A DNA stretch of 32,846 bases from IMG/VR virus record IMGVR_UViG_3300009370_000101, positions 1-32,846 of that record. The stretch is one strand, 5' to 3'. Each line of letters opens with the position of its first letter. The stretch's first letter is position 1. This stretch comes from a virus. The notes below the pieces were generated by a model, which worked only from the letters and a program-made list of their open reading frames with translations, was not told the DNA's origin and searched no databases. Position numbers and translations under genes: made by a program. This document shows, one piece after another, positions 4,256 through 11,840 of this stretch.

Positions 4256-4313
4256 ATAATTATTAATAATAATAATAATAATAATAATTAATAATAATAA
4301 TAATATTAATATT
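4256..4313. repeat. 58-bp A/T-only tract with TAA/ATT trinucleotide repeats
   Basis: Positions 4256-4313 contain no G or C. The core is a long run of AAT/TAA units (about 4262-4290), a short break, a second run (about 4292-4306), then ATTAATATT. It lies in the 168-bp gap between the annealing-protein gene and the helicase gene. Such easily melted tracts serve as DNA-unwinding elements at some origins or as slippage-prone spacers. Nothing here shows which applies. Confidence 0.9.
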
Positions 4314-4341
4314 GCAAAATTTGTGCCAACCGCCAAATGCC

Positions 4342-5366: not shown

Positions 5367-6440
5367 CTATGTGTTAGACTTTATTAGAAATCTGCGTGAT
5401 TGGACATAAGCCTTGGTATGTTCATTCTCAAAATCACCCAACAAAGACATAGCATAATCAGATTCATCAGACGGATGTGCTGATAAATGCGCACGCAAAG
5501 ACTCAACGATAGCCTTATAGTCTGTCTTAACTTGTGTCTTAGAATTTTTAAACGAAACTAACTGTTGTCCTTCCTGCCCTACTAGAATGCCAGCCTTACC
5601 CATATAAGATTTAATATGATTTTTTAAAGTCTCTTCTTCTGCTACCAAAGGCTTTAAATATTTTTCTTTAATCTCACTAAGTCTGGCAACAGCAATGTCT
5701 ATTTTCTCTGTGCTAGTTACCCAATCCATAGTGCTTTCTGGATACAGTAGTTTTAAATCTTCCTTAGTAGGATTAATTATCTCTGGTAGAGTCCCTGACT
5801 TTAAGCACTCCCAAAATTTTAGAACAGCTTGGAAAACCCTATCCTTAGTTTCCCTATCTATAATTAGATCATGCGTCATTATAGGATTACCTGAGATTCT
5901 AAGGTGTGGGGCAAACCCTATGAATTTCCAATTATCGATGCCTGTTATGATGCTATACCAAACTACTTGGTAGTATTGCCAAGGCGGTACTTCTCCCTCA
6001 GCCCAGTATTTCCTATGTATCCCTTCGCTTACAGTCTTGACTTCTATACCAATTAAAATATCTTCTCCCTCTACAAGAGAAGGTTTTTGTAAGTAGAAAT
6101 CAGGATGAGCATACATCCAATCCTCTACTCCCCTGATTATAAGAGGCTGATACATCACGCCATCATAGGTAACATCTGGATAAGGAACATGAGGAGAGTG
6201 ACTGTTTAAAGGTATGGCATCCGAATCAAAGAAATACTTATTCTCTTCGCAGAATTCCTTAGCAACTACACTCTCTAATATCTGCCCCCATTTCATTGCA
6301 TGATTCAAAGAAGGAGGGGGAATTTCCCCCCTCTTCTCTTTATATAACTTAACAATACTACAATAGGGATTGGCTCCCATGATTGCACCTACATCACTAC
6401 CACCAATACCCTTGCGCCTTTCTTCGGGTGTTAGAAGCAT
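5367..6440 (-). CDS. YqaJ-type (lambda-exonuclease-like) recombination nuclease
   Basis: This 357-aa protein carries the YqaJ/lambda-exo signature. RKGIGGSDVGAIMG (residues 9-22) is the N-terminal motif, WGQILESVVAKEF follows with Glu56, then HPDF with Asp114, IEVKT with Glu133 and Lys135, and PWQYYQVVWY with Gln155/Gln158. D114, E133 and K135 form the PD-(D/E)XK metal site. The enzyme resects double-stranded ends 5' to 3', leaving single strands for the annealing protein encoded downstream. The C-terminal 150 residues are helical and may form oligomer or partner contacts. AGGAG lies 9 nt before the ATG, and the gene overlaps the DUF932 stop by 10 nt. Length is somewhat above lambda exonuclease (226 aa), as is usual for YqaJ phage proteins. 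Confidence 0.85.
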   Translation of the reverse strand: MLLTPEERRKGIGGSDVGAIMGANPYCSIVKLYKEKRGEIPPPSLNHAMKWGQILESVVAKEFCEENKYFFDSDAIPLNSHSPHVPYPDVTYDGVMYQPLIIRGVEDWMYAHPDFYLQKPSLVEGEDILIGIEVKTVSEGIHRKYWAEGEVPPWQYYQVVWYSIITGIDNWKFIGFAPHLRISGNPIMTHDLIIDRETKDRVFQAVLKFWECLKSGTLPEIINPTKEDLKLLYPESTMDWVTSTEKIDIAVARLSEIKEKYLKPLVAEEETLKNHIKSYMGKAGILVGQEGQQLVSFKNSKTQVKTDYKAIVESLRAHLSAHPSDESDYAMSLLGDFENEHTKAYVQSRRFLIKSNT

Positions 6441-7249
6441 ATCTCTTTCTCCTCTGGTCTAATAATTTTATCTAATTTACCAACAATATCAAACTGCCTA
6501 GCAGGAGAATATCTTTTTACTACGGTGTTAAAAGCATTATACAAACGCCAACCATCTCTTGAACGCTTGAAAGCATCATGTGTTGGGTTCTCCCATAGCT
6601 TATCAACGTAACCAATATGTGACCACGACATAAGCTTATCCCTACCTGCCCTAAGATATGCGCTGGCAAGCTTGCGATCATCAATCGTTATAGACTTTAA
6701 ATTGCGTACCATTTCCCCTAGCTTGGGAATATTTTTAAGGTACTTGTTTATTCCTTCCTCCATAACAGAATTAATATTGTGAATGTTACCGCTAGTATGC
6801 TTAATATTAAAAGCAATCTCACCTGTTATAGCCATATTGTCGCAAACAAAAACATTACCTCCTATTGTACCCTTCGCTGCAAACTTGCTAAGGTTTGAGT
6901 GTCGGAAGCCCATAGTAGGTTCCATTTCGTCTGTAAAATACTGGGAAATAACTGTTGGCCTACCCATAAGTTCTGTTTCAAACTTAATATAGCCAAACAA
7001 ATCGCCACCGTCATCACTAACGCCCCACCTAGTTCTTTTTAAATCGATAGGCATACCCTTATTCTGGCATACTCCATCTATAGCATTTACAATATCGTAA
7101 TGCTGGATACCCCTCCATCTTTGAGTGCGAGCAAGAGTTTTTGTATGCCCTGACCGCCCGATATATTCATGTACTGCCTCTGGTACTGGAACATCCCTTA
7201 ACTCATGTACTTTTACTTCATGTGCGCCACAATGTAACATTAGTCCCAT
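6431..7249 (-). CDS. DUF932-family protein
   Basis: This 272-aa protein matches the DUF932 layout: an R-W-S/G-like region (KRTRWGVSDDGGDLFGYIKF), then GFRHSNLSKFAAKGTIGGNVFVCDN (about 114-138, the 'R-S-D/N ... G--VFVCDN' core), then EIAFNIKHTSGN with the conserved K-H, and a long helical C-terminus. DUF932 proteins are common on plasmids and phages near recombination genes, but their biochemical role is not established. Here the gene directly precedes the exonuclease/annealing-protein pair with overlaps on both sides (10 nt each). That placement fits the known association with recombination modules. The start at 7249 follows AAAGGA at acceptable spacing; an in-frame ATG three codons later is an alternative. 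Confidence 0.7.
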   Translation of the reverse strand: MGLMLHCGAHEVKVHELRDVPVPEAVHEYIGRSGHTKTLARTQRWRGIQHYDIVNAIDGVCQNKGMPIDLKRTRWGVSDDGGDLFGYIKFETELMGRPTVISQYFTDEMEPTMGFRHSNLSKFAAKGTIGGNVFVCDNMAITGEIAFNIKHTSGNIHNINSVMEEGINKYLKNIPKLGEMVRNLKSITIDDRKLASAYLRAGRDKLMSWSHIGYVDKLWENPTHDAFKRSRDGWRLYNAFNTVVKRYSPARQFDIVGKLDKIIRPEEKEICF

Positions 7250-7545
7250 AGTAATTGTCCTTTCTTAATACGTTTAAGTTTATCCTTAGACCATCGCCTT
7301 TGGATATAGTGAACACGCTGCTTAGATATACCCCACAAATCTCCTAGTTCTTGTAAGGTCATACCCTTATTCAACTGCCTTAACAAAGTCTTGTCTCTTT
7401 TATTTGGCTTTGTTAATGGAGGCCTACCCCTATTGAAATACCTCTGGTCGTACAATTTATTTAAATCACTAAGCTGTAAGTCTTTAATCTTTTTACCCTT
7501 TGCATATTTTTTAGCTTTAAGCTTTACACCATTTTTCAAGCTCAT
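7240..7545 (-). CDS. Sigma-70 region 4-like helix-turn-helix DNA-binding protein
   Basis: This 101-aa protein is strongly basic. Residues 62-85 (MTLQELGDLWGISKQRVHYI followed by QRRW) form a helix-turn-helix of the sigma-70 region-4/resolvase type, preceded by RGRPPLTKPNKRDKTLLRQL. The GRPP phrase is AT-hook-like. It could be a transcription regulator of the phage or a sigma-like recruitment factor; with no other sigma regions present, full sigma function is unlikely. It lies in the middle of the leftward operon, overlapping the DUF932 gene by 10 nt. It is the only clear HTH regulator in the window, which makes it the best candidate for binding one of the repeat families (inference). Confidence 0.65.
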   Translation of the reverse strand: MSLKNGVKLKAKKYAKGKKIKDLQLSDLNKLYDQRYFNRGRPPLTKPNKRDKTLLRQLNKGMTLQELGDLWGISKQRVHYIQRRWSKDKLKRIKKGQLLWD

Positions 7546-9336: not shown

Positions 9337-9534
9337 TGCTCACCTCGCAGAAATAAGAACACACCTTCTCTCACATCACTCCTACCCAAGTCTTAGGATA
9401 GGTGATGGCTGGCGGAGCCAATATTGAGAAGATGCATCCTATTTAGTTAGTAAATTAAGGGAATTTCCCTGCACCCTAGACACCATATATAGAGTACAGG
9501 GAATCCCCACCCTCCCCCTTGTGTGAGGAGAGTT
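9337..9534. other. Gene-free spacer with GGGAA-type dyads
   Basis: No gene is seen. An inverted repeat TTCCCTG (9465-9471) / CAGGGAA (9497-9503) encloses a 25-nt loop, and GGGAATTTCCC is itself palindromic (about 9460-9470). A short TGGCT/AGCCA hairpin lies near 9407-9421. These could be operators or parts of a leader for the leftward run starting at 9336. No convincing promoter pair was found. Confidence 0.4.
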
Positions 9535-9825: not shown

Positions 9826-9981
9826 TTAAACAAGCCCGTAGAGAATAGCTTTGCTCACTACGGTATTAGTGCAACATGATTCACAGTAACCTTGCTGTTG
9901 ATCTACTTCTACTTGTGCTTCTTCTCCACATTCACTACACAATCCAACATCTTCTAATCCTTCTAGTCTATCTTCTTTCAT
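9826..9981 (-). CDS. Tiny zinc-ribbon protein, 51 aa
   Basis: ATG 9981 follows AGGAGC with 6-nt spacing and opens a frame of 51 codons ending TAA at 9828-9826. The product (MKEDRLEGLEDVGLCSECGE, then EAQVEVDQQQGYCESCCTN, then TVVSKAILYGLV) has Cys-x2-Cys at residues 15-18 and Cys-x2-Cys-Cys at 33-37, a four-cysteine zinc ribbon. Such miniature ribbons occur in phage early regions and may bind host polymerase or nucleic acid. It is too short to be found by common length cut-offs. The next gene starts 20 nt downstream with its own ribosome site. Confidence 0.65.
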   Translation of the reverse strand: MKEDRLEGLEDVGLCSECGEEAQVEVDQQQGYCESCCTNTVVSKAILYGLV

Positions 9982-9982
9982 G

Positions 9983-10075
9983 TTAATGCTCCTGTTTATG
10001 TGTTATTACCAAGGCTAGGTATGCAATTCCTAGTACAACTACACATACAGTTAGCCATACCAATATCTCAAACAT
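9983..10075 (-). CDS. Tiny membrane peptide, 30 aa
   Basis: ATG 10075 lies 6 nt after GGAG and opens a frame encoding MFEILVWLTVCVVVLGIAYL followed by ALVITHKQEH, stop TAA at 9985-9983. Residues 3-24 form a single hydrophobic helix with a short polar tail. The gene ends within the ribosome site/start region of the zinc-ribbon gene, so the two are probably coupled. Good ribosome site, clean hydrophobic helix and tight spacing support it despite the length. Inner-membrane localisation is expected; role unknown. Confidence 0.55.
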   Translation of the reverse strand: MFEILVWLTVCVVVLGIAYLALVITHKQEH

Positions 10076-10180
10076 ACATCGCTCCTGTATTACGGGAATT
10101 TGTAAGATGGGAATTTTATACCACAAGATAAATTAACCTACCCCGTTATAGGCTTCCCTAGGCTTTGACTATCATACTTC

Positions 10181-10204
10181 TCTAACCTATTGATTTATAA
10201 GGCC
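10181..10204 (+). repeat. 24-bp direct repeat, copy 1 (partner at 11410-11433)
   Basis: The 24 bp here match 11410-11433 in direct orientation at 22 of 24 positions; the two differences are an adjacent A/T swap. The element is TCTAACCTA followed by the core TTGATTT-WW-AAGGCC. It lies just below the 36-aa membrane-peptide gene, partly overlapping its stop codon at 10205 side, and is the distant member of the iteron-like family described at 11295-11634. Confidence 0.85.
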
Positions 10205-10315
10205 TTACCTCATATAACTACTAAACGCTAGCAATATACCAGATGCGCTTATACCTATAATTAACAATAACTTAGCTAATACCTCGAATAGCTCCCTAAT
10301 ATCATTCTCATTCAT
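10205..10315 (-). CDS. Tiny membrane peptide, 36 aa
   Basis: ATG 10315 follows AAGGGGGTG with about 9-nt spacing and opens a frame encoding MNENDIRELFEVLAKLLLII then GISASGILLAFSSYMR, stop TAA at 10207-10205. A short acidic amphipathic start leads into a hydrophobic helix (residues 12-32). It is the first gene of the tiny-gene run. The strong ribosome site argues that it is translated. Function unknown; tiny early membrane peptides often modulate host envelope or exclusion systems, which is inference only. Confidence 0.55.
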   Translation of the reverse strand: MNENDIRELFEVLAKLLLIIGISASGILLAFSSYMR

Positions 10316-10540
10316 GCTTATTTCACCCCCTTAGGCTTAGGTAGTAAATTGCCGTTTCAATTCTGACGGCCTGATTGGCTGATTTAAGGCTTTAATTTTT
10401 TACCCTGCCTACCCTACCGACTTTTTTATTTTGTTGATATTTCGGCAGGATAAGGCCGTTACAATCGGTTTTGAATATCGGTTTACAAGCATTTTGAAAT
10501 TGGCCTGATAATCAGGTAAACTTCAAAAGGCCTGAAACGT
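10316..10540. other. Gene-free spacer upstream of the tiny-gene run
   Basis: No gene is seen. It contains one iteron-like core TGATTTAAGGC (10380-10390), a perfect 13-bp palindrome CCTGATAATCAGG (10504-10516), and repeated GGCCTGAT/GGCCTGAA phrases (10368, 10502, 10529). These resemble operator half-sites shared with the 11123-11760 region. A promoter for the leftward run starting at 10315 should lie here, but no convincing -35/-10 pair was found. Confidence 0.45.
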
Positions 10541-10576
10541 AAAAAACCCCTTAAACCGTAAAGGCCTAAGGGGTTT
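10541..10576 (-). terminator. Rho-independent terminator of the 174-aa gene (leftward)
   Basis: AAACCCCTTA (10544-10553) pairs perfectly with TAAGGGGTTT (10567-10576) over 10 bp, with a 13-nt loop. Read leftward the hairpin is followed by UUUUUU (plus A-run 10541-10546, part of the stem). It lies 22 nt below the stop of the leftward gene at 10598. Read rightward there is no T-tract, so it is directional. Confidence 0.85.
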
Positions 10577-10597
10577 AATACCTTGAAAATTAAAGGC

Positions 10598-11122: not shown

Positions 11123-11273
11123 AACGTATTTCCTTTCAAAGGTTTATAGGGTAGTTAAGCCTTACAAGGCCTAACAAGGCAAAATTTTGCCTCAACCCTT
11201 ACAAGCAAATGCCGTGCCATTTTTGAAAAGTCTTTATTTTTCAATGACTTAGCATTTTGGGCTGTTTATTAAA

Positions 11274-11331
11274 TGCCTCATTTTGAGGCAAAAATCATTG
11301 ATATTTAAGGCGATTGCCTCATTTTGAGGCA
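11274..11331. repeat. Two identical 17-bp palindromes (TGCCTCATTTTGAGGCA)
   Basis: Perfect 17-bp copies lie at 11274-11290 and 11315-11331, 41 bp apart start to start, about four helical turns, so both face the same side of the helix. A third copy of the left 13 bases is at 11390-11402, and the half-site TTGCCTCA occurs at 11187-11194. Seven-base arms around a 3-bp centre are typical of a dimeric repressor operator. Confidence 0.9.
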
Positions 11332-11634
11332 GTCTAACTGTTTGATTTTTAAGGTGTTATTCGTTTTTAATGGGTTCAATTTTAGACGATGCCTCATTTT
11401 GAACATCGTTCTAACCTATTGATTTTAAAGGCCGTTGTCGTTTTTCTAGGTTTATTATACCTGAATTGCTTAGGCTTCCCTTACTACTGAAATGCATAAG
11501 CCTATGAATTTAAAGGCATTAAGTAATTGTAGGGGATATATGCTTTATGCTTTTATGCCTTATCTTATTGTTATTACATGAGTTATGCCTCATATTCATG
11601 CATCGTAGTTATGATAATCCTTTATAAATCAATG
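11295..11634. repeat. Iteron-like family, core TTGATTT-WW-AAGG
   Basis: Direct copies: 11295-11312 (TCATTGATATTTAAGGCG), 11333-11356, 11410-11433, and a degenerate copy at 11501-11518 (CCTATGAATTTAAAGGCA). An inverted copy lies at 11619-11634 (reverse complement CATTGATTTATAAAGG). Further direct copies lie outside at 10181-10204 and 10380-10390. Two of the copies directly follow the TGCCTCA dyads (the first ends before, the second starts after them), so the two repeat families are interleaved. Confidence 0.75.
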
Positions 11635-11765
11635 CCTTACGTTTCCCATTGCAGGGAATAGCGACCCCGAAAATGCGGGAATTCATGCGTATTATATTAA
11701 CTCATCCGTAGGGCGACACAATTTCTCCAAAAAAAAATAAAAAAAAGAAAGCCAATAAAAGGGGG

Positions 11766-11794
11766 TTGACAATTCATTAAAAGTATGATAAAAT
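11766..11794 (+). promoter_or_regulatory. Strong sigma-70 type promoter, rightward
   Basis: TTGACA at 11766-11771 is a perfect -35 box. A 17-bp spacer leads to TAAAAT at 11789-11794, a 5/6 match to the -10 consensus. Transcription would start near 11801, about 97 nt before the first rightward gene at 11898. It is the clearest promoter in the window and points to use of the host sigma-70-type polymerase for the rightward unit, at least at first. Confidence 0.8.
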
Positions 11795-11818: not shown

Positions 11819-11840
11819 AAAAAACAGCCCTAAGGGGCTG
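11819..11840 (-). terminator. Leftward-facing intrinsic terminator inside the rightward leader
   Basis: CAGCCC (11825-11830) and GGGCTG (11835-11840) form a 6-bp stem with a 4-nt loop. Read leftward it is followed by UUUUUU (A-run 11819-11824), a standard terminator. Read rightward the next bases are AGAATTATTT, not a T-tract. It would stop leftward transcripts before they enter the control region; in the rightward leader it could act only as a hairpin. Confidence 0.7.

Follow-up and report, generated by a model that had tools for sequence, protein, structure and literature searches.

A 775-bp gene-free region in the genome of an uncultured bacterial virus may be an enhancer-type promoter for host sigma-54 RNA polymerase, with activator palindromes upstream of it, that controls a one-gene transcript encoding a 174-aa protein. 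This is the explanation we favor for the region, and we give it an even chance of being correct. Phages usually transcribe from promoters for the housekeeping sigma factor or for a polymerase of their own. If a phage gene is indeed under host sigma-54, its expression would be tied to the nitrogen or stress state of the host.

Gene layout and signals of the region

The record is a 32.8-kb IMG/VR entry, and the window is all of it (32,846 nucleotides). Its portal protein is 33–37% identical to the portals of Pelagibacter podoviruses. The preliminary description of this DNA had placed a gene-free zone between two divergent operons, and the gene layout bears this out. The leftward genes, left of 11123, include a helicase, a RecE-like exonuclease and a Sak-like annealing protein. 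The rightward genes, right of 11897, begin with a dATP/dGTP pyrophosphohydrolase-like gene, followed by terminase-like and portal genes (by position and portal comparison). No cultured isolate related to the region was found, either by DNA match or by match of the 174-aa protein. A GTDB host lookup matched a single MAG contig (L052, Nitrospiraceae), which is possibly mis-binned. A fixed genome end near the region was considered and rejected by eye; the contig ends fall at differing aligned positions. The signals in the region and around the 174-aa gene are listed below.

10183-10202, plus strand: a further copy of the 20-bp motif, located in a second gene-free gap (20-bp profile)
10544-10576, minus strand: intrinsic terminator immediately downstream of the 174-aa gene, as also seen in L010 and L012
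10598-11122, minus strand: 174-aa gene, the only one on the leftward transcript; L007, L010, L012 and L046 have relatives
11177-11192, no strand: AGGCAAAATTTTGCCT, a 16-bp palindrome where transcription is predicted to start
11204-11219, minus strand: sigma-54-like -24/-12 element TGGCACGGCATTTGCT, 12/12 to TGGCACGN4TTGCW; leftward start predicted at ~11193
11274-11290, no strand: perfect palindrome 1, TGCCTCATTTTGAGGCA, centre about -89 from the predicted start
11291-11310, plus strand: motif copy 1, the weakest (20-bp profile)
11315-11331, no strand: perfect palindrome 2, TGCCTCATTTTGAGGCA, centre about -130
11335-11354, plus strand: motif copy 2, also an IHF consensus match (20-bp profile)
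11390-11406, plus strand: palindrome half-copy (from the sequence)
11412-11431, plus strand: motif copy 3, also an IHF consensus match (20-bp profile)
11497-11516, plus strand: motif copy 4 (20-bp profile)
11586-11602, plus strand: degenerate palindrome copy, missing in the near-identical relative L004
11662-11728, plus strand: core element CGACCCCGAAAA..GGGAATT..CATCC..AATTTC, common to 15/15 aligned family members
11766-11794, plus strand: rightward sigma-70 promoter TTGACA-N17-TAAAAT, 11/12; same element in relatives
11825-11840, plus strand: hairpin CAGCCCTAAGGGGCTG within the rightward leader; relatives have similar ones

Since the terminator lies directly 3′ of the 174-aa gene, the leftward signals drive that single gene. 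The 174-aa protein had no sequence match in Pfam, PHROG, NCBIfam or PDB, and a fold comparison with its model (pLDDT 68) gave no match with an E value under 0.29. The rightward late operon would be served by its own sigma-70 promoter. An Rfam scan of the gene-free regions returned zero matches; this includes the core at 11662-11728 (GACCCCGAAAA..GGGAATT..CATCC..AATTTC), which is kept in all 15 aligned members.

A sigma-54-like element, palindromes and a 20-bp motif

The preliminary description had overlooked the sigma-54-like element TGGCACGGCATTTGCT, which precedes the 174-aa gene by 82 nt. This element has the GG of the -24 box and the GC of the -12 box, at a conserved position just upstream of the gene start. 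Within the 150-nt leader, none of 2000 leader shuffles reached its 12/12 match. At the same position, relative L012 also matches at 12/12 (0/2000 shuffles) and L010 at 11/12 (2/2000), while L006 matches at 10/12 (12/2000) and L007 at 9/12 (85/2000); the last two are weak taken alone. In each of the five phages the predicted start precedes the start codon by 67–78 nt, and the alignment of these otherwise divergent leaders, which represent only about three independent lineages, shows no change in the TGG.A and T.GC columns. In five other relatives (L046, L009, L052, L040 and L042) the best sigma-54 match in the leader is at chance level (6–8/12), and sigma-70-like hexamers are found at about the same position instead. 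Sigma-70-like hexamers also overlap the sigma-54 element in L006 and L007. Of the arguments for the element as a promoter, the strongest is that sigma-70 and sigma-54 elements replace each other at one place among relatives. When the whole window was scanned, one intragenic site slightly outscored TGGCACGGCATTTGCT, a level reached by 1/100 shuffles. The score is not unique in the window; the argument depends on where the element lies and on its conservation. A second intergenic sigma-54-like site, TGGCACAAATTTTGCA (4313-4328, minus strand), precedes a DnaB-type helicase gene by 140 nt and adjoins AAT repeats.

Sigma-54 activator sites are usually palindromes located about 80–150 bp upstream of the promoter, and the two perfect palindromes of the region lie within this range. 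The preliminary description had reported these two 17-bp palindromes, 41 bp apart, a half-copy at 11390 and the 16-bp palindrome at 11177, all of which are present in the sequence. The arrangement TGCCTCA-N0..5-TGAGGCA occurs twice in the window and never in 100 shuffles. TGCCTCA itself occurs 12 times in the window, against 3.8 expected, with seven of the 12 inside the gene-free region. The region contains six perfect palindromes with arms of at least 7 bp, compared with a mean of 1.2 and a maximum of 7 in 500 shuffles. The upstream palindromes vary in sequence among relatives: L010 and L012 have a TTACACN6GTGTAA-type palindrome at -144, and L007 has ATCTACAACAGTGTAGAT at -154. We know of no host activator that recognizes TGCCTCAn3TGAGGCA. 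A host transcription factor for this site was considered and rejected, the exact 17-mer being present in 10 IMG/VR stretches, not clearly above chance.

The second repeat family, described earlier as at least five copies of TTGATTT-WW-AAGG, was redefined as TAAnnnnTTGnWTTYTAAAGG, a form common to most relatives. The 13-mer TTGATWTTWAAGG has three exact copies in the window (11298, 11342 and 11419), all in the gene-free region. With two mismatches allowed, the window has 16 copies against 8.6 expected, and 1/100 shuffles reach 16. As 13-mers the weakest copies (11504 and 11620) are at chance level, and the 13-mer alone does not support them. A 20-bp profile built from the relatives, with the window copies included in its training set, supported 11497-11516 and gave four copies in the region. 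The inverted copy at 11619 and the degenerate palindrome copy at 11586 are not conserved, since both are missing from the near-identical L004. Of the copies claimed earlier, the three exact ones are present and that at 11501 is supported by the 20-bp profile; the inverted one is weak, and the positions had been given 3–9 bp too early. The second gene-free gap (9834-10597), left of the 174-aa gene, has two motif copies, at 10183 (plus) and 10581 (minus).

The IHF consensus WATCAA-N4-TTR has three exact matches in the region of the window, against 0.12 expected. The window, L006 and L007 have this consensus within the motif; L010 and L012 have an altered GAT in TTGAT and an intact TAAAGG. Since these two relatives break the IHF part yet keep TAAAGG, the motif may have a phage-specific binder, rather than simply IHF. 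In L006, L007, L010 and L012 the motif lies at -45 to -75 from the predicted start.

These elements suggest the following mechanism. Host sigma-54 RNA polymerase would form a closed complex on TGGCACGGCATTTGCT (11219-11204) and remain there. Opening would be triggered by a host enhancer-binding activator bound to the TGCCTCATTTTGAGGCA pair at -89/-130, whose spacing of 41 bp is about four helix turns. The interleaved TTGATTTTAAAGG elements, of which two or three fit the IHF consensus, would help to bend the DNA, and the 16-bp palindrome may serve as a local operator at the start site. Here sigma-54 binding, the palindromes as activator sites and the role of bending are what we infer from the sequence. 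The function of a sigma-54 promoter requires rpoN and an activator ATPase. As neither a sigma-54 gene nor an activator gene was found in 20 phage records, both would be host factors. The earlier suggestion of a compound operator fits this arrangement, in which several kinds of element surround a sigma-54-like promoter that is well placed and keeps its position in the relatives. Against the promoter reading, the host may lack sigma-54, and the overlapping facing pairs of some relatives, described below, suit no ordinary promoter.

Array-type relatives and alternative explanations

Six relatives (L013, L034, L040, L042, L043 and L045) are of an array type, with 3–13 sigma-54-like elements in both directions in the same gene-free region. 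In the array-type relatives, this region lies upstream of a dGTP-hydrolase-like gene. The elements often form overlapping facing pairs with starts offset by 18–22 bp, so that two polymerases could hardly use both. Across the 15 gene-free regions of the family, TGGYA-N6-TTGCW occurs 45 times, and any other spacing 0–3 times. L013, L042, L043 and L045 have 3–5 separate Fur-box matches each. The facing-pair pattern was found in at least 120 IMG/VR stretches, some of them related to each other, compared with six for a control pattern with a spacer one base shorter. The contigs span 30–68% GC. Around 116 facing-pair loci, the DnaA box TTATCCACA occurs 31 times in 12 loci (1.25 in shuffles), Fur boxes 16 times in 7 loci (0.0) and IHF sites 39 times in 32 loci (5.65).

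Two other accounts of the pairs were rejected. As RNA or DNA hairpins, their arm interiors match below random (first position 0.31 vs 0.52 expected, 157 pairs), and as a common chromosomal element they were found in 0/198 genomes of the phylum of the Nitrospiraceae MAG. Among L054–L173, several stretches (e.g., L065, L069, L078, L085 and L092) have regular arrays of facing sigma-54-like pairs with a 47-bp period; those of L065 and L085 are flanked by genes of opposite direction, and the phage group carries ThyX-like and terminase genes. By eye, palindromes of the TGCACCAnnTTGGTGCA type (NtrC-like) and the AGTGAGTACTCACT type adjoin facing pairs in L070 (~2828) and L164 (~254).

For the array-type relatives, the leading alternative to the promoter reading is that the region traps regulators, titrating sigma-54 polymerase, Fur and DnaA of the host, and in the window a palindrome-binding factor, as phage copies multiply. 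The many sites in both directions, the facing pairs with DnaA, Fur and IHF sites enriched around them, and the Fur boxes all favor a trap. So does the cultured SAR11-infecting phage of this type, HTVC010P, in which the only sigma-54-like matches are two loose ones, both outside its divergent gap; to our knowledge, its host group lacks rpoN. The bound proteins are putative, assigned from site look-alikes, and the sites are few relative to typical regulator copy numbers unless the phage copy number is high. The window itself has one sigma-54-like site in the region, at a promoter-like conserved position, and neither a Fur box nor a DnaA box there, and we consider a trap rather unlikely. A broader proposal, that many unrelated phages carry gene-free islands of look-alike sites for host master regulators that capture these regulators, with the window as a small promoter-type member, is conceivable and on the doubtful side. 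A limited literature search found no description of host-regulator look-alike sites packed in phage gene-free stretches. The pattern of facing sigma-54-like pairs, which many unrelated viral contigs combine with DnaA and Fur boxes, gives an idea about phages and host regulators that can be tested directly.

The palindromes could also be operators of a phage-encoded regulator, such as the HTH protein at 7240-7545, that governs divergent transcription. They flank and overlap the divergent promoters, one of them sits at the predicted start, and their sequence shifts among relatives as repressor specificities do; a short HTH protein is encoded in the window and in L010/L011. This protein matches HTH_23 and sigma-70 region 4 only weakly and has no link to the palindromes, and no integrase or repressor was recognized within the window; we consider such operators unlikely. 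The preliminary description had offered a replication origin as well, with the motif copies as iterons; the core and A-tract (11662-11750) would then be the opening site. The same-direction motif copies and the presence of the core beside an A-rich tract in all 15 aligned members speak for it. In relatives, however, motif copies differ in direction and in number, from none to four or so, and the region of the window has no DnaA box, nor was an initiator recognized among the window ORFs scanned. The GC skew does change sign at the region, but this coincides with the change in gene direction, and the skew flips again at ~1.1 kb likewise. Since it follows gene direction everywhere in the window, it does not discriminate. 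We regard an origin as improbable. Least probable is an injection stop or anchor of the kind proposed for T5, in which DNA-binding proteins of the host would arrest incoming DNA at a gene-free stretch. The annotated injection stop signal (iss) of T5 does carry DnaA-type and LexA-type sites and inverted repeats. In the T5-like Vibrio phage D419 (L203), each of the 6 strict sigma-54-like sites and 5 TTATCCACA boxes found in the 100 kb of genome covered by the scan falls within 103219-107182, a cluster of ~4 kb near the DNA-transfer gene. The T5 iss lacks a strict sigma-54-like site, and we know of no two-step DNA entry for the podovirus type of the window.

Comparison with known systems

The favored reading as a sigma-54 promoter draws on bacterial promoters of this class, of which glnA and nif, with enhancer-binding activators and IHF, are examples. 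The region shares with them the TGGCACG-N4-TTGCW element, paired palindromes ~90–130 bp upstream, and bending-type elements between or beside these. It differs in that the phage has neither a sigma-54 gene nor an activator gene, the palindromes interleave with the bend-type motif, and this motif keeps TAAAGG, which IHF does not need. The Pelagibacter phage HTVC010P (NC_020481) has the same genome plan, with a gap between leftward genes and a rightward terminase-structural operon and with short repeats of its own. Its gap has no sigma-54-like site, no palindrome family and no 20-bp motif.

The nearest known relative in kind is the injection stop signal of T5 (AY543070, 9140-10149), described as a set of repeats, palindromes and DnaA boxes with a possible role in contacts with components of the host (PMC13250531). 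Fur-like matches in the T5 iss were not above shuffles. T5 (L206) has near-identical LexA-type boxes, CTGTATAAATATACAG, at 6213 and 9411, each near DnaA boxes, with that at 9411 inside the iss. The two regions differ in that the T5 iss lacks strict sigma-54-like sites, whereas the region of the window lacks DnaA, LexA and Fur sites. They are alike in being gene-free, rich in repeats and located beside the first-expressed genes, and in combining palindromes with sites for host proteins, which in T5 are of the DnaA and LexA types.
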